Source of the DNA: Prevotella sp. E9-3
Lineage (GTDB): Bacteria > Bacteroidota > Bacteroidia > Bacteroidales > Bacteroidaceae
Assembly (NCBI RefSeq): GCF_022024015.1
Contig: NZ_CP091786.1
Location: forward strand, 1 to 64,000
Direction: 5' to 3'
DNA: 64,000 bases
Part shown: positions 8,973 to 64,000 of the stretch, one piece after another
How the letters are laid out: each line of letters begins with the position of its first letter
How positions within the stretch are numbered: position 1 is the first letter of the stretch
Program-made: the position numbers and the translations under genes
Notes under the pieces: generated by a model
Told to the model about the DNA's origin: nothing
Database searches by the model: none
Seen by the model: only the letters and a program-made list of their open reading frames with translations

Positions 8973-9755
8973 TCACCCCTCTCCTCTCAGGAATTCACAG
9001 AGTTTCTGTGTAGCTCTGGCACGATGACTGATCTTGTTTTTGATGTCAACACCCAGTTCGGCAAAAGTCTTGTCGTAGCCATTGGGACGGAATATTGGGT
9101 CGTAGCCAAAGCCCTCTGCCCCACTCCGTTCACGGGTTATCTCGCCATCGACGATTCCTTCAAACAGATGCTCCTGTTTGATGGACGTGCAGCCACATGG
9201 ACACACATCTTTCTTTTGTATTAACGCAATAACAGTGCGAAATCGTGCCTTACGGTTGTTATTTTCTCCTAAATCGTTGAGCAACTGGGTCATATTGGCC
9301 TCGCTGTCGTGGCTTGCAGGAGGGGTGGCTTGTTGGGTTTGTTGGGTTTGTCGGGTTTGTTGCGACTCAGTCGCAACATACTGGACGGCGGCCTTCTGAG
9401 CGGCGGCATAGCGAACGGCGGCATAGCGGGCACTAAACACTCCTGGTGCACCATTGAGGGCCTCTACCTCCAGACCGGTGTCGTCGGCAAAACAGGGAAG
9501 GTGGTAGTGCTCCCATACATAGCGGGCCTTCTGGAGGGCATTCTCTTCAAGGGTGTTGCCGGTTTCAGGAATATCGACATCGCAGCCGATGTCCTTCAAT
9601 GACAGTACTTCTATCTTATCGCCCAGAATGGCCTGTATCTCCGACAGTTTGTGGGCGTTGTTGGTACAGAATACGAGCCTACCCACAGCCCCTCCCGAAA
9701 GAAGGGGGGATTTTTGAGTCAGTTCGCCTATTTCTTGATTTATATTTTTGTCCAT
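8973..9755 (-). CDS. rdgB: XTP/dITP diphosphatase (RdgB/HAM1) with in-frame insertions
   Basis: Hydrolyses non-canonical purine nucleotides (XTP, dITP) to keep them out of DNA. The core is intact: [11 protein letters not shown] (27-37), [23 protein letters not shown] (90-112), EGFGYDPIF (214-222) and KISHRARA (241-248). At 260 residues it is about 60 longer than usual. The excess lies in an N-terminal extension (1-25, partly encoded by a GC-rich palindrome), an insert at about 112-150 with [10 protein letters not shown] repeats, and a small CPCGC-containing loop near 185-190. Translation could start later, but no Met stands next to [10 protein letters not shown]. The inserts fall in loops, so activity may be kept. 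Confidence 0.9.
9329..9376. repeat. 9-bp repeats plus GCGAC palindrome inside rdgB
   Basis: Three to four TTGTTGGGT units are followed by the perfect palindrome TTGCGACTCAGTCGCAA (9360-9376). In the rdgB frame they encode the [15 protein letters not shown] segment. The palindrome shares its GCGAC/GTCGC core with copies at 25817-25829, 26266-26284 and 37687-37707. Confidence 0.85.
9688..9710. repeat. GC-rich palindrome at the rdgB 5' end
   Basis: GCCCCTCCCGAAAGAAGGGGGG forms a hairpin and encodes [11 protein letters not shown] of the RdgB N-terminus. It is related to the two copies at 9802-9867. Confidence 0.7.
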
Positions 9756-9801: not shown

Positions 9802-9867
9802 CTCCCTCCTTTCGGGAGGGGTTGGGGGTAGGCCTTTCTCCCCTCCTTTTGGGAGGGGTTGGGGGTG
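9802..9867. repeat. Two direct copies of a GC-rich palindromic element
   Basis: Each copy is a CTCCC/GGGAG hairpin followed by a GGTTGGGGGT tail (9802-9829 and 9839-9867). The same hairpin-plus-tail occurs between frdA and frdB, inside dapF and near 32512. Confidence 0.8.
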
Positions 9868-9905
9868 GGCCCTTCTCCTCATGGTCGGGGCTAGGTGTGG
9901 GCCCT

Positions 9906-32499: not shown

Positions 32500-32507
32500 G
32501 TCTATTT

Positions 32508-32580
32508 ACTCCCCTCCATTCAGGGAGGGGCTGGGGGAGGGTCCGGGAGTCCCTTGTGTCCGTTGGGTCTGTTGGGTCCC
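32508..32580. repeat. GC-rich palindromic element plus TTGGGTCTG repeats
   Basis: ACTCCCCTCC...GGGAGGGG with a GCTGGGGGAGGG tail, then GTTGGGTCT 9-mers. Same family as 9802-9867 and the dapF inserts. Confidence 0.7.
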
Positions 32581-39397: not shown

Positions 39398-41377
39398 ATG
39401 GCTAAAGTATTAGATTCAAAGATTCCTGCAGGTCCAGTACCTGAGAAATGGAAGGAATATAAAGCTCATCAGCGTCTTGTTAACCCCAAGAACAAGCTGA
39501 AGCTCGATGTGATTGTGGTTGGTACCGGTCTGGCTGGTGCTTCTGCAGCTGCTTCACTCGGTGAGATGGGCTTCAACGTGATTAACCTGTGCATTCAGGA
39601 CTCTCCCCGTCGTGCTCACTCTATCGCTGCTCAGGGTGGTATCAACGCCGCCAAGTGCTATCAGAACGATGGTGACTCTGTCTATCGCCTGTTCTATGAT
39701 ACCGTAAAGGGTGGTGACTATCGTGCTCGCGAAGCCAACGTTTACCGTCTGGCTGAGGTATCAAACAATATTATCGACCAGTGCGTGGCTCAGGGCGTTC
39801 CCTTCGCTCGTGAGTACGGTGGCATGCTGGCAAACCGTTCGTTCGGTGGTGCTCAGGTAAGCCGTACATTCTACGCTAAGGGTCAGACCGGTCAGCAGCT
39901 GCTGCTCGGTGCCTACTCTTCACTGTCTGCTCAGGTGCAGGCTAAGAAGGTGAAGCTCTACACCCGTTATGAGATGGAGGATGTGGTGATTGTTGACGGC
40001 CGTGCCCGTGGTATCATCGCCAAGAACCTCGTTACCGGTAAGCTGGAGCGTTTCTCTGCCAATGCCGTAGTAATTGCTACCGGCGGTTACGGAAACACCT
40101 ACTTCCTCTCTACCAACGCTATGGGCTGTAACTGCACCGCTGCCGTTCAGTGCTATCGTAAGGGTGCTGTGTTTGCAAACCCCTCTTACGTGCAGATTCA
40201 CCCCACCTGTATCCCTGTTCACGGCGACAAGCAGTCTAAGCTGACACTGATGTCAGAGTCACTGCGTAACGACGGCCGTATCTGGGTTCCAAAGAACATC
40301 GAGGATGCTAAGAAACTGCAGAAGGGTGAGATTCAGGCTTGGGATATCCCCGAGGAGAACCGCGACTACTATCTGGAGCGCCGCTATCCCGCCTTCGGTA
40401 ACCTCGTTCCCCGTGACGTGGCTTCACGTGCCGCTAAGGAGCGTTGCGACAAGGGCTTCGGCGTGAACAACACCGGTCTGGCTGTGTTCCTCGACTTCTC
40501 TGAGTCTATCAACCGTCTGGGTCTCGACGCCATGAAACAGCGTTATGGCAACCTGTTCGATATGTACGAGGAGATCACCGACGTTTATCCTGGCGATTTC
40601 GGTAAGGAAATCAATGGCGTGAAGTACTACAAGCCTATGATGATCTTCCCTGCCGTTCACTATACCATGGGTGGTATCTGGGTTGACTACGAGCTGCAGA
40701 CCACTATCCCCGGTCTGTTCGCTATCGGTGAGTGTAACTTCTCTGACCACGGTGCAAACCGTCTGGGTGCTTCAGCACTGATGCAGGGTCTGGCCGATGG
40801 TTACTTTGTACTGCCTTACACCATCCAGAACTACCTGGCCGACCAGACTATCTGGGGCAAGGTTTCTACCGATCTGCCTGAGTTTGCTGAGGCTGAGAAG
40901 AAGGTGGATGCCGAGATGGATCGCCTGCTGAATATCAAAGGTAAGCGCTCTGTTGACTCTATCCACAAGGAACTCGGTCACATCATGTGGGAGTATGTAG
41001 GTATGGGTCGCACCGCTGAGGGCCTGAAGACCGGTCTGAAGAAGATGCACGAACTGGAGCAGGAGTTCGACAAGAACCTCTTCGTTCCTGGCACTAAGGA
41101 AGGGCTGAACATCGAGCTCGACAAGGCTATCCACCTGCGTGACTTCTTCACCATGGGTCAGCTCGTAGCATTCGACGCCCTCTCTCGTAACGAGTCTTGC
41201 GGTGGTCACTTCCGTGAGGAGTACCAGACCGAGGAAGGCGAGGCTAAGCGCGACGACGAGAACTACTTCTACGTAGGTTGCTGGGAGTACAAAGGCAAGG
41301 GCAACGAGCCTGAACTCATCAAGGAACCTCTGGAGTACGAGGCTATTAAGGTACAGACACGTAACTATAAGAACTAA
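39398..41377 (+). CDS. frdA: Fumarate reductase/succinate dehydrogenase flavoprotein subunit
   Basis: Catalytic subunit interconverting fumarate and succinate. 659 residues. FAD-binding [19 protein letters not shown] (41-59). The His that carries covalent FAD is in [16 protein letters not shown] near 74. Substrate-site segments [24 protein letters not shown] and [14 protein letters not shown] are all intact. Codon choice is strongly biased (CTG, GGT, CGT, AAC), suggesting high expression. In a gut anaerobe the usual direction is fumarate reduction producing succinate. Confidence 0.96.
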
Positions 41378-41553
41378 GCCTCACCCCCAACCCCTCTCCA
41401 AGGGGAGAGGGGAGTAGATAGTTCTGCTAAATAAATAATAATAGAGTAATAACCAAATATAAAAAAGTCCTCATGACCAGTCCCTCTGCGACAGCGGAAT
41501 AGCAAGAGTAACCACTCCCCTCTCCCCATCGGAGAGGGGCTGGGGGTGAGGCT
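41377..41553. repeat. Inverted pair of GC-rich palindromes between frdA and frdB
   Basis: The left unit (41377-41415) begins GCCTCACCCCCAACCCCTC and the right unit (41514-41553) ends GGCTGGGGGTGAGGC. Each holds its own CTCTCC/GGAGAG hairpin, so the 177-bp block has terminal inverted repeats and an inner segment without genes. It resembles a REP doublet or a small MITE inside an operon. Confidence 0.85.
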
Positions 41554-60960: not shown

Positions 60961-61000
60961 TTTTTCAATTCATAATTTATAATGCATAATTCATAATTCT
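60961..61000. repeat. AATTCATAATTTATAATGC short repeat
   Basis: Fills the dapF-dapL gap and runs into the dapF 3' end. Same family as 6750-6790. Confidence 0.6.
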
Positions 61001-61920
61001 ATTTCGCCGTCACAGACGAATTCTGCAGGACCAGTCATATATACGTGATTCTTTTTAAAAAATTGTGAACCAATTGTAGAATCTTTTTCACACCATTCAA
61101 TTTTTAAGGTTCCACCGTCCATCACGATTTGCGATGTTCGTCCGGCCCTACCGGTGACGCAGGCGGCAACAGCCGTGGCGCAAGCACCTGTTCCGCAGGC
61201 CAGGGTGATACCACTGCCACGTTCCCAAACACGGGTGCGGAAGGCCTCCCCCGATCCCTCCGAAGGGAGGGGAGTCGCAAACTCAATATTGCAGCGCTGA
61301 GGAAAGGCAGAATGGCGCTCGAGCTGAGGCCCTGTCTTACCCACCTGGTCTATATCGTCGGTGAAAATGACGTAGTGAGGGTTGCCCATGGAGACGAAGA
61401 GACTCTCCCCCGACCCCTCCCTGTGAGGGAGGGGAGTGGATAGACCTTTTGCAATTTGTGGGTTGAAGAGAGTTTCGTCTTCAAATACAGGCTCACCCAT
61501 ATCCACAGTAACGGATTCAACTATATTATTAACAATATGAAGATAGAGATTTTTAATCCCAGAGAGTGTCAACAAGCGTATTTCAGCTTCTTGGTAACCA
61601 CTCCCCTCCCTCACAGGGAGGGGTTGGGGGAGAGTCTTCTGGGGGAGAGTCTTTTCATACAAATACTTTCCGATGCACCTCGAGGCATTGCCGCACATCA
61701 TGGCCTCAGAGCCGTCGGCATTAAAGATACGCATGGAGAAGTCGGCCTCGGGTACAGGACTCTTGTCTATCAGCACCAGACCGTCGGAACCGATGCCTTT
61801 ATGGCGATCGCTCCATTTAATGGCTGCCTCGGCAGGATTGTCGATAGGGTGCTCCATGACATTGACATAGATATAGTCATTGCCACAGCCGTGCATCTTG
61901 GTGAAGGGAATCTTTTTCAT
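60991..61920 (-). CDS. dapF: Diaminopimelate epimerase with three palindrome-coded insertions
   Basis: Epimerises LL- to meso-diaminopimelate for lysine and peptidoglycan. 309 residues against about 265-275 usual. Both catalytic Cys are present: MCGNASRC (C76) and ACGTGAC (C242). Start motif [15 protein letters not shown] is intact. Three inserts share the phrase PLPxREGSG: about 92-110 ([12 protein letters not shown]), 160-175 ([14 protein letters not shown]) and 214-227 ([13 protein letters not shown]). Each is coded by a copy of the GC-rich palindrome. They fall on surface loops by comparison with the family, between the two Cys-bearing lobes. The gene is in the gltB-gltD-dapF-dapL order. 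Confidence 0.95.
61248..61280. repeat. GC-rich palindrome in dapF (copy 3)
   Basis: CCTCCCCCGATCCCTCC...GGAGGGGAGTCG, encoding [13 protein letters not shown]. Confidence 0.85.
61403..61441. repeat. GC-rich palindrome in dapF (copy 2)
   Basis: CTCTCCCCCGACCCCTCCCT then GTGAGGGAGGGGAGTGG, encoding [14 protein letters not shown]. Inverted relative to copy 1, 160 bp away. Confidence 0.88.
61599..61650. repeat. GC-rich palindrome in dapF (copy 1)
   Basis: CCACTCCCCTCCCTCACAGG with GGAGGGGTTGGGGGAGAGTC and a partial second tail, encoding [17 protein letters not shown]. Confidence 0.88.
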
Positions 61921-61942: not shown

Positions 61943-62004
61943 CTTCATAGGGTGGAAAGATATGCATCAACTTCTTCATAGGATGGAGAGATATGCATCA
62001 ACTT
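61943..62004. repeat. 31-bp tandem duplication at the gltD 3' end
   Basis: CTTCATAGGxTGGAxAGATATGCATCAACTT occurs at 61943 and again at 61974. The second copy encodes the gltD C-terminus (VDAYLSIL, stop); the first is a diverged extra copy after the stop, itself reading VDAYLSTL, stop. Confidence 0.85.
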
Positions 62005-63367
62005 TCTTCGCAGTCTCCTTACCGCTGGCCATTGCGCGCACTACCAGTGAGGCACCGTTGGCGCTATCGCCACAGACAAACACGTTCTCAGGGTATTCAG
62101 GATGCTCAGGCTTGAGGAATCCCATAGCGAGAAGGACGAGTTCGGCCTTGATAATCTCAGGCTTGCCTTTCTCAACCATGATGGGGCGACCGCCTTCAGG
62201 ATTGGTTTTCCAGTCTATCTCCTGCACCTTTACGCCAGTCAGATGACCGTTCTCACCCAAGAACTCCAGTGTGTTGATGTTCCAGCGACGGGTGCAGCCC
62301 TCCTCATGACTGGAAGTTGTTTTGAGTGTACGCGGCCAGTTGGGCCAAGGGCTCTGCGGGTCTTCTGGACCTTCAACAGGTTTGGGCATAATCTCTATCT
62401 GAGTCACGCTCTTGCATCCTTGGCGGTGGGCAGTGCCAATGCAGTCAGAACCTGTATCGCCACCACCAATCACCAGCACATCCTTACCTTTGGCAGTGAT
62501 ACGTTCGTCCTTACTAAATTCAATGCCTGCCAGCACACGGTTCTGCTGTGACAGCAGTTCGAGGGCGAAGTGAACGCCCTTGAGTTCGCGACCAGGAGCT
62601 TTCAGGTCGCGAGCGGTTGGGGTGCCGGTAGAGATGATGACAGCGTCGAAGCCGGTTGAGAGCTGCGATGAAATCGCATCAGAAGAAATGGGACTGCCGT
62701 ATTTGAACTCGATGCCTTCTTGTTCGAGCAGGGCGATGCGACGATCGATGACGGCCTTATTCAGTTTGAAGTTGGGGATGCCGTAGCGCAACAGTCCGCC
62801 GGCGGCTTCGTTCTTCTCGAACACCGTTACCGTGTAGCCCATCAGGTTCAGGTCGTTGGCAGCAGCCAGTCCGGCAGGGCCGGCACCAATCACAGCCACC
62901 TTCTTGCCATTCTCGCCTTGCGAGCGTCCTTCAGCCGAGCGGCGCTTGATGTTAATGTGAGGCTGGATAAAGCCCTCCTGAAAGGCCATCTCGGTGATGG
63001 CACACTCATCCTCACGGTTGGTGGTGGGCTCGTGGTTAAAGCGGTTCAGCACACAGGCCTTCTCACAGAGTGCCGGACAGATGCGACCAGTGAACTCGGG
63101 GAAGGGGTTGGTGCTGCTCAACAGCTTGTAGGCCAGTTCCCAGTCGCCCTTATACAGGGCATCGTTCCATTCGGGGGCTTTGTTGCCCAGCGGACAAGCC
63201 CAGTGGCAGAAAGGTACGCCGCAGTCCATGCAGCGCGAAGCCTGCAGTTTACGTTCGCGGACGCTGAGCGTCTGCTCTACTTCACCAAAATCGTGTATTC
63301 TATCGTGAATGGGGCGGTAGCCAGCCTCCTGTCGATGTATCTCTAAAAATGCTTTTGGATTTCCCAT
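61976..63367 (-). CDS. gltD: Glutamate synthase small subunit
   Basis: NADPH-oxidising beta subunit of GOGAT; passes electrons to GltB. 463 residues from ATG 63367 (MGNPKAFLEI); four extra codons upstream belong to a repeat. Cys clusters CMDCGVPFC near 40 and CPALCEKAC near 95 bind 4Fe-4S centres. Two dinucleotide folds: VIGAGPAGLAAANDL near 147 (FAD) and VIGGGDTGSDCIGTAHRQG near 285 (NADPH). It follows gltB after 41 bp. With glnN it supplies GS-GOGAT ammonia assimilation. Confidence 0.96.
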   Translation of the reverse strand: MGNPKAFLEIHRQEAGYRPIHDRIHDFGEVEQTLSVRERKLQASRCMDCGVPFCHWACPLGNKAPEWNDALYKGDWELAYKLLSSTNPFPEFTGRICPALCEKACVLNRFNHEPTTNREDECAITEMAFQEGFIQPHINIKRRSAEGRSQGENGKKVAVIGAGPAGLAAANDLNLMGYTVTVFEKNEAAGGLLRYGIPNFKLNKAVIDRRIALLEQEGIEFKYGSPISSDAISSQLSTGFDAVIISTGTPTARDLKAPGRELKGVHFALELLSQQNRVLAGIEFSKDERITAKGKDVLVIGGGDTGSDCIGTAHRQGCKSVTQIEIMPKPVEGPEDPQSPWPNWPRTLKTTSSHEEGCTRRWNINTLEFLGENGHLTGVKVQEIDWKTNPEGGRPIMVEKGKPEIIKAELVLLAMGFLKPEHPEYPENVFVCGDSANGASLVVRAMASGKETAKKVDAYLSIL

Positions 63368-63405
63368 CTCAATTATCAATTATCAATTATCAATTGTCAA
63401 TTATC
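63366..63405. repeat. AATTATCAATTATC repeat between gltB and gltD
   Basis: Four to five units of AATTATC fill nearly the whole gap and overlap the alternative gltD start. Confidence 0.65.
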
Positions 63406-63408
63406 AAT

Positions 63409-64000
63409 TTAATAGTCGCGCTGGACGTTCTCGATTTTTTCTTTCAGCTTCTGCATCTTTTCCTCCTCGAGAACGCGCTTGTACTCGATGGGCACCACCT
63501 GAATGAAGTCCTCAATATAGCGATGCCAGTTGTCGAGCATCCTTCCTGCAAGGGCCGATCCTGTGTGCAGATAGTGCTGACGAATGAGTTCGAGCAGTTC
63601 TTTGCGCGATACAGAGTCCTCGACCAGCGATAGCTCCACCATATCCATATTACAGAAATAGTCGAATGTGTGGTCGGGGTCATAGACATAGGCCACACCG
63701 CCTGACATACCAGCAGCGAAGTTGCGGCCCGTCTTACCAAGAACCACCACACGACCGCCAGTCATATACTCGCAGCAGTGATCGCCGGCGCCCTCGATAA
63801 CGGCGATGGCACCCGAGTTGCGCACACCAAAGCGTTCGCCCACCTTACCGTTGACGTAGAGTTCTCCACTGGTGGCGCCATACAGACCGGTGTTGCCAGC
63901 GATGATGTTTTCCTCAGCATGGAAATCCTCACTACTTCTGACAGGAGGAAGAATAGAGATGCGACCACCTGAGAGTCCTTTTCCAAAATAGTCGTTACAC
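63409..64000 (-). CDS. gltB: Glutamate synthase large subunit, C-terminal part
   Basis: About 197 codons of the 3' end; the gene continues beyond the right edge. The segment is the GXGXG beta-helix domain: NDYFGKGLSGGRISI, NTGLYGATSGELYVNG, ERFGVRNSGAIAVIEGAGDHCCEYMTGG and GRNFAAGMSGG. It ends with the usual helical tail (NWHRYIEDFIQVVPIEYKRVLEE). GltB makes two glutamates from glutamine and 2-oxoglutarate. It is the first visible gene of the gltB-gltD-dapF-dapL cluster. Confidence 0.93.
   Translation of the reverse strand, partial: CNDYFGKGLSGGRISILPPVRSSEDFHAEENIIAGNTGLYGATSGELYVNGKVGERFGVRNSGAIAVIEGAGDHCCEYMTGGRVVVLGKTGRNFAAGMSGGVAYVYDPDHTFDYFCNMDMVELSLVEDSVSRKELLELIRQHYLHTGSALAGRMLDNWHRYIEDFIQVVPIEYKRVLEEEKMQKLKEKIENVQRDY

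Follow-up and report, generated by a model that had tools for sequence, protein, structure and literature searches.

Palindromes in frame in dapF of a Prevotella genome as probable ends of a DUF559 nuclease element

The dapF gene of Prevotella sp. E9-3 contains three in-frame copies of one GC-rich palindrome, and this raises the question of what these palindromes are and how a conserved enzyme comes to keep them. The window analyzed here is the whole stretch of 64,000 nucleotides that opens contig NZ_CP091786.1 (positions 1 to 64,000, forward strand). The features of the dapF locus are the following:

60991-61920, minus strand: dapF, an intact open reading frame of 309 aa, with Pfam DAP_epimerase (PF01678) in two stretches, homologues and solved relatives
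about 61594-61637, plus strand, antisense to dapF: palindrome copy 1 (site 1), giving a peptide of 13 letters
about 61400-61443, minus strand, sense to dapF: palindrome copy 2 (site 2), giving a peptide of 14 letters; head-to-head partner of copy 1
about 61241-61281, minus strand, sense to dapF: palindrome copy 3 (site 3), shortened, giving a peptide of 11 letters

A sequence-only reading of the window had described three in-frame copies, the first two facing each other, in a gene with both catalytic cysteines intact, and all of this was borne out. The frame is open over 309 codons, copies 1 and 2 lie on the plus and minus strands, respectively, and Cys 76 and Cys 242, which we take to be the catalytic pair, are invariant in an alignment of 32 sequences. 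The peptide TPLPSEGSG is part of the in-frame reading of the palindromes. For the comparison with relatives that had been proposed as a check, we used 110 DapF rows, namely the 30 best of 44 matching genomes (own genome included) and the 80 best of 590 named contigs, with some species present twice. The sites are empty in most of these rows, most of which have YERGLTDKTEIR or similar at site 1, and the three segments are not conserved in distant DapF proteins. Site 1 is filled in 13 rows by a strict motif, and 8 of these are also long at site 2, a class defined by length alone that includes several deep rows without a palindrome. The DapF sequences of L065 and L066 look like decayed filled cases. 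Elsewhere the loops hold other palindrome subfamilies (12 letters at site 1 of L063; SPRGGLEG or APSGAVGGAF at site 3), and site 2 is filled in L127 and empty in L137. In relatives, the same loops can thus hold the same palindrome, another palindrome, or nothing. A further variable loop, at about residues 280-290 of DapF, holds something other than a palindrome (DRSAEGRSFQKN in relatives, another 12 letters here); this loop and the SAEGRS of gltD (61976-63379) may correspond to another small element.

The palindrome was traced through the genome (3,733,400 bp, one contig) with the tail pattern GNGAGGGGYYGGGGG, allowing at most one mismatch. Sixty sites were detected, against 2 for the reversed pattern used as control; in 7 of the 60, the second hairpin arm is not evident. 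Alignment of 45 copies from this genome with an intact CTCCCC head gives an element of about 45 bp, and conservation is gone within about 8 bases on each side. About seven weakly conserved bases (CTATCTA or GTAACCA) are followed by the hairpin CTCCCCTCCCTCACAGGGAGGGG or a variant of it, then by the tail TTGGGGG and by a subfamily-specific AGAGTC, TGAGGCT or TGGGTC. Apart from those in dapF, the following copies were mapped in the window:

9676-9696, minus strand: tail without an evident second hairpin arm, within an open frame, facing the 9802 copies
9802-9835, plus strand: intergenic palindrome, first of a tandem two
9838-9872, plus strand: intergenic palindrome, second of the tandem two
32502-32544, plus strand: single intergenic palindrome
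41377-41421, minus strand: intergenic palindrome, left half of a head-to-head pair
41508-41553, plus strand: intergenic palindrome, right half of that pair

The intergenic copies at 9802, 32508 and 41377-41553, which had been equated with the dapF element, do belong to the same family.

With three decayed copies added, the genome holds 63 sites, of which 32 lie inside 21 genes with a Pfam product, the host genes being picked by hand from the list of open frames. The genome-wide search that had also been proposed revealed that many copies are genic and that the palindrome is found in genes other than dapF. The 32 genic sites use 5 of the 6 frames (three sense and two antisense). Reading four copies in all six frames, we found three open in five frames (with one stop in the flank) and one open in four, so that an "always readable" frame needs little adaptation beyond the loss of broken genes. 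The claim of an element adapted to be tolerated as peptide holds in part: the element is multicopy, mobile-looking and apparently retained as peptide in conserved enzymes, but a single adapted frame is not supported. Nor is special targeting of dapF, as nearby gltB carries eight copies. The inserts are presumably translated and retained in the protein.

Several genic copies deserve separate mention. Palindromes were observed by eye in or beside the lipoprotein signal regions of Mfa2-, HlyD-, SusD- and fasciclin-like proteins (contig positions 1002264, 2013530, 3699280, 3701183 and 3703454). A SusD label for the gene at 3703346-3705172 was ruled out, Pfam identifying a fasciclin-domain protein. 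In an ABC transporter cluster at contig 2010449-2013679, a nested palindrome, one element inside the loop of another, occurs five times within 3.3 kb, in both orientations, which suggests local copying of a composite. A Vsr mismatch-endonuclease gene (contig 2335565-2336131) has a palindrome in frame, so that a Vsr-like enzyme is itself a target.

Among neighboring copies 31-600 bp apart, the head-to-head arrangement with tails pointing outward accounts for 14 of 15 cases in this genome, 11 of 12 in G023, 25 of 37 in G059, for which 100 of 127 sites were considered, and 10 of 24 in G016, for which 66 of 76 sites were considered and tandem arrays make up most of the rest. Strand shuffles reached the observed head-to-head counts in 0, 0, 0 and 376 of 10,000 trials for the own genome, G059, G023 and G016, respectively. 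Seven pairs fetched from G016 are 98-101 bp apart, and six of them share a common interior by eye. A MITE would have terminal inverted repeats around a common, gene-free interior, but in the own genome and G023 the interiors differ. Other pairs have non-coding DNA, a short interior or part of a host gene between them. The opposite arrangement was observed in G449, of the same class, with three pairs placed tail to tail at 67-68 bp.

A Pfam scan of interrupted genes identified a DUF559 domain (PF04480) inside a DegT aminotransferase, beside a palindrome. A genome search gave four full copies of this domain and one weak copy. The full copies map as follows:

between 3399354 and 3399841: DUF559 copy, head-to-head pair
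between 3179307 and 3179783: DUF559 copy, head-to-head pair
140280-140597: DUF559 copy inserted in the DegT gene
298288: DUF559 copy fused in frame before sufD

These four are only 42-50% identical, so a recent burst is not seen. Across four genomes, 5 of the 6 pairs spaced 470-560 bp enclose DUF559, the exception being 1002264/1002815 of the own genome; the enclosing pairs outside this genome are in G059 (C19), G023 (C45) and G016 (269246/269788). The domain is present in 37 of 60 genomes of the genus. From 83 hits we took 33 loci, the four of the own genome and the best one from each of 29 genomes, with the weak L168 as a 34th. The flanks of the 34 loci match in inverted orientation (sum 1597), and none of 10,000 permutations reached the own-partner scores. 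At a cut-off of 45, about the 95% point of wrong pairings, matched inverted palindromic arms bound 22 of the 33 loci (L168 left out), with tails inward by eye in three of them (L165, L172 and L175); clear matched arms are missing at the other 11, including the DegT unit of the own genome (score 17). The signal is weaker in other genera of the phylum, where 7 of 30 loci score at least 45 (16 of 10,000 permutations). Some arms match genic palindromes: copy 1 of dapF equals an arm of unit L192 (genome G050) at 40 of 41 bases, and among the 22 matched-arm units the nearest arms to copy 3 are those of L189.

Palindromes and nuclease also vary together. Counts of the tail pattern run from 0 to 127 within the genus and correlate with DUF559 counts (rho 0.63, p 5e-8, 60 genomes; rho 0.61 in the 34 genomes at least 90% complete). 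Against such a link, some genomes have sites but no DUF559 hit (19 in G032, 16 in G022, 7 in G027) and others have DUF559 hits without the pattern (5 in G030, 2 in G012); the pattern covers one group of subfamilies. Within the 22 units, arm similarity follows nuclease identity (rho 0.46, equalled by 1 of 2000 permutations). The residues DF, ExDG, D..R, R and N are conserved in 33 of 33 DUF559 domains and an H in at least 85%. A profile of 16 domains matched 3hrl, an endonuclease-like protein (7e-31), and 3r3p, annotated "Mobile intron protein" (8e-7), with four other hits at E 0.1-0.7. We take 3r3p to be I-Bth0305I, a Vsr-like enzyme.

Whole nuclease units are also found in frame in host genes, 29 of 69 DUF559 hits (E up to 2e-20) lying in open frames of at least 250 codons. 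Within a single frame, DUF559 is both preceded and followed by host domains in DegT, ABC-F (L174), HsdR (L215), LeuRS (L188, L202, L205, L226), MetH (L209, L211, L217), an epimerase (L185, the part beyond the unit being named by eye) and an AAA helicase, the last at like spots in two genomes (L177, L197). Less weight attaches to units fused ahead of guanylate kinase (4 loci), RNase H (2), IspF, an amino acid kinase and SufD, because an inner start codon could separate the parts. The junctions of the units are often translated palindromes, for example PSPSPKEKG, APPLGAGGA and APLLGRGGGR. No intein domain was detected in the interrupted proteins scanned (Pfam, E 1e-5), where DUF559 and the related MTES_1575 were listed, and Rfam, at its gathering score, gave no intron RNA either for 7 sources containing palindromes or free-standing units or for 16 loci with fused or interrupted genes. 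Intragenic hairpins that match the ends of nuclease units suggest a gene-invading element without need of splicing.

From these sequence comparisons, the palindromes probably form the ends of an element that encodes a DUF559 nuclease and is tolerated as peptide; its autonomous form would be palindrome, DUF559 gene, inverted palindrome. This small unit would be mobile, and its nuclease, which is a member of the Vsr-like PD-(D/E)XK group and related in sequence to a mobile-intron (homing) protein of solved structure, may cut at or near the palindromes and thereby move them. Palindrome subfamilies and nuclease lineages would be paired, as REP palindromes are with RAYT enzymes, and single palindromes or pairs with other cargo would be shortened, non-autonomous derivatives. 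Insertions in tolerant loops could survive as peptide because the palindromes contain few stop codons, which would be why conserved genes such as dapF and gltB keep them; whole units would likewise persist in frame in LeuRS, MetH and other hosts, where signs of splicing are absent. DUF559 might instead be a passenger, with the palindromes moved by something else or acting as recombination hot spots that often trap it. Pairs around non-coding DNA, short interiors and host segments are compatible with this, and action of the nuclease on the palindromes is a deduction. The copy-number correlation, the matching of arms within units and the co-variation of arms with nuclease are nevertheless how a partner behaves, and we regard a passenger role as unlikely.

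The gltB gene, two genes from dapF, was used to follow pairs within a host gene:

contig 63412-68136 (the window holds the 3' end, 63409-64000), minus strand: gltB, a frame of 1575 codons

Its eight in-frame palindromes all lie past the window edge; seven were found by the pattern and one, decayed, in the alignment. They alternate antisense and sense four times over, and the DNA between each two is host gene. Some of the 67 rows compared have the sites filled, but most rows covering them are empty there. Site 8 is a replacement, with 31 residues in both the filled and the empty state. For sites 3 and 4, the 48 rows comprise 14 with both filled, 31 with neither, 3 with site 3 alone (the length variants L086, L074 and L111) and 0 with site 4 alone, and the two change together on the tree (sign test, median p 0.008). 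The link is looser for sites 1 and 2 (43 rows: both 8, neither 27, singles 5 and 3; median p 0.125). The two copies match in inverted orientation at sites 3/4 (0 of 20,000 permutations; 14 genomes with both filled) and at sites 1/2 (33 of 20,000; 9 genomes), while pairs 5/6 and 7/8, with two genomes each, are uninformative in this respect. Depending on the lineage, sites 3/4 hold one of five subfamilies, two of which do not resemble the others; the filled rows L066 and L132 have decayed too far to be assigned. Filled genes are spread across the gltB tree, often beside an empty sister. Among the 22 matched-arm units, the closest arms are those of L178 for site 3 of L060 and of L173 for site 5 of the own gltB; no close arm was found among them for site 3 of L126. 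At site 5, unrelated in-frame hairpins were observed in one loop of L126, L063, L062, L100 and L065, and relatives of one of these families occur at 8 places in G060 against 1 for the control, a modest excess. A repeat family (TTCTTCACTCTTCACTC / AAGAATGAAGAATG) was also seen inside coding regions, in gltD of L061 and at gltB site 5 of L093 and L105.

The host segment between paired palindromes is replaced as a block. In segment 3-4, filled and empty genes are 60-69% identical at any degree of relatedness, while pairs of the same class track relatedness (0 of 5000 permutations); no such effect was found in three control segments of gltB. For example, L076 and L100 (Xylanibacter ruminicola) are 96.1% identical in the rest of the gene and 66.7% in the block (32% at third positions), with block edges about 0-40 nt from the palindromes. 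Codon agreement at same residues between filled and empty genes is 0.420 in segment 3-4 against 0.415 expected from codon usage, 0.428 against 0.414 in segment 1-2 after exclusion of eight rows with a single site or an unclear state (0.447 against 0.414 when the filled class was drawn more widely) and 0.448 against 0.439 in segment 5-6 (two filled rows only). The host segments between matched pairs have no detectable shared ancestry of synonymous codons with the empty allele, and this holds even for sisters with 96% identity in the remainder of the gene. Agreement at the codon-usage rate means saturation, not avoidance, and recoding of the blocks to escape the nuclease was ruled out on the 3-4 values. 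In 11 genomes, blocks with the same palindrome subfamily share codons (0.546 against 0.444 expected), whereas those with different subfamilies do so barely above expectation (0.465 against 0.443). In L061, where site 7 lacks its partner at site 8, there is no such replaced block. Block replacement makes the exact empty sites hard to define. In dapF, L062 and L063 are 87.9% identical outside the segment between the sites and 65.7% within it; about 55 nt adjoining site 2 are nearly identical, yet the palindromes differ, so block and arm can part company.

A simple transposon does not explain host segments between paired palindromes. Within the nuclease-element explanation, repair of nuclease cuts from the allele of another species may replace the host segment from palindrome to palindrome. 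More tentatively, we can imagine a natural cleave-and-replace system, which is possible though we would not favor it: DUF559 would recognize its own palindromes or the uninterrupted allele and cut both of a pair, the gap being refilled from the gene of another species. Conserved enzymes would then be mosaics of swappable palindrome-bounded blocks, and whole units would home into coding sequence without splicing, the insert being tolerated. The blocks could also be read without any present-day mobility, as old insertions that are inherited and exchanged by ordinary homologous recombination, the filled and empty segments of gltB and dapF being ancient alternative alleles. Saturation of filled against empty gltB blocks at all levels of relatedness fits this reading, as do the scatter of the filled state over the tree and the sharp block edges, which are expected if heterology bars recombination inside. 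It does not sit well with different subfamilies, matched within each pair, at the same two gltB sites across lineages, each with its own block, or with tail-pattern counts of 0-127 in one genus, and we consider it rather improbable.

The anatomy of the palindromes recalls REP/REPIN elements mobilized by RAYT, a Y1 tyrosine transposase: both are short tailed palindromes occurring as singles and inverted dimers (head to head here, including the ~99-bp G016 units with a common interior), an enzyme gene is flanked, and some copies are genic. Y1_Tnp (PF01797) is moreover found in 34 of 60 genomes of the genus. It is, however, absent from the own genome, which is 99.9% complete, and from G003, G026 and G047 despite 52, 44 and 31 copies; its counts are not correlated with those of the tail pattern (rho 0.16, p 0.23, 60 genomes), and it is DUF559 that sits between the arms. 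RAYT was rejected as the mobilizer on the own genome and the counts, and this explanation retains little probability. The systems differ in that a Vsr-like DUF559 protein here takes the place of the Y1 transposase, and in that whole enzyme units stand in frame in host genes. The foot of the hairpin is variable and often reads CTATCTA-CTCCCC on the head side, so that GTAG, which with CGTC forms the REP tag, is on the other strand and side only. Intragenic REPs with GTAG/CGTC have already been reported in several species, for example Opitutus terrae (PMC3733652).

Artefacts of assembly, sequencing or gene calling, to which GC-rich hairpin repeats are prone in the form of misassembly, can practically be dismissed, as the own genome assembled into a single contig, independent assemblies from several projects have the same sites filled and the frames are open across 309 and 1575 codons. 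Snap-back template switching, considered as a source of inverted pairs, leaves the blocks and DUF559 unexplained, though it may account for single cases. An invertible-DNA switch was considered too; inversion would break DapF.

Three further known systems are close to the DUF559 nuclease element as proposed. Rickettsia palindromic elements (RPEs), which are inserted in protein-coding genes according to the accessible text of PMC10969869, are likewise palindromic repeats in frame in many unrelated genes and retained as peptide (here at 32 of 63 sites, in 21 genes). The likeness to them drawn in the sequence-only reading holds for retention as peptide and for presence or absence at the same loops; the nearest relatives found are, by contrast, the arms of DUF559 units. 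Compared by description and not by sequence, RPEs are given as about 150 bp in the consulted part of PMC10969869 against about 45 bp here, and the present elements differ in phylum, paired arms and a cognate nuclease gene; the portions seen of PMC10969869 and PMC3733652 mention no nuclease partner for RPEs. In the excerpt of PMC12306157 available to us, RepRanger lists Flavobacterium species but gives no insertion into coding sequence for that phylum. EDxHD homing endonucleases such as I-Bth0305I share a related nuclease domain (3r3p, E 8e-7), the occupation of conserved genes and a gene-conversion-like spread, which we propose here too (PMC3943268, as far as its accessible sections go). There, homing-type nucleases in conserved genes are explained by self-splicing introns and inteins, neither of which was found here, where the arms are palindromic and the host frame keeps the extra segment. 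Finally, Caulobacter VsrA is a DUF559 protein of the Vsr-like PD-(D/E)XK type linked to DNA damage in vivo; the part of PMC12907096 that was consulted treats it as a predicted mismatch-repair enzyme and mentions neither palindromic arms nor mobility. A literature search, covering few subscription papers and thus no proof of absence, found no report connecting DUF559 to palindromes and no description of these inserts.

DUF559 (PF04480) is present in 222 of 395 genomes of the phylum, so the phenomenon may be common. If true, the proposed element would join gene-tolerated palindromic repeats with homing-type nucleases, which are usually kept apart, would give the DUF559 family a mobile role and would explain odd insertions in LeuRS, MetH, GltB and DapF. 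It would also open two questions to testing, namely what moves palindromes that lie inside genes and whether the block-wise exchange of housekeeping genes between species is driven by nucleases.
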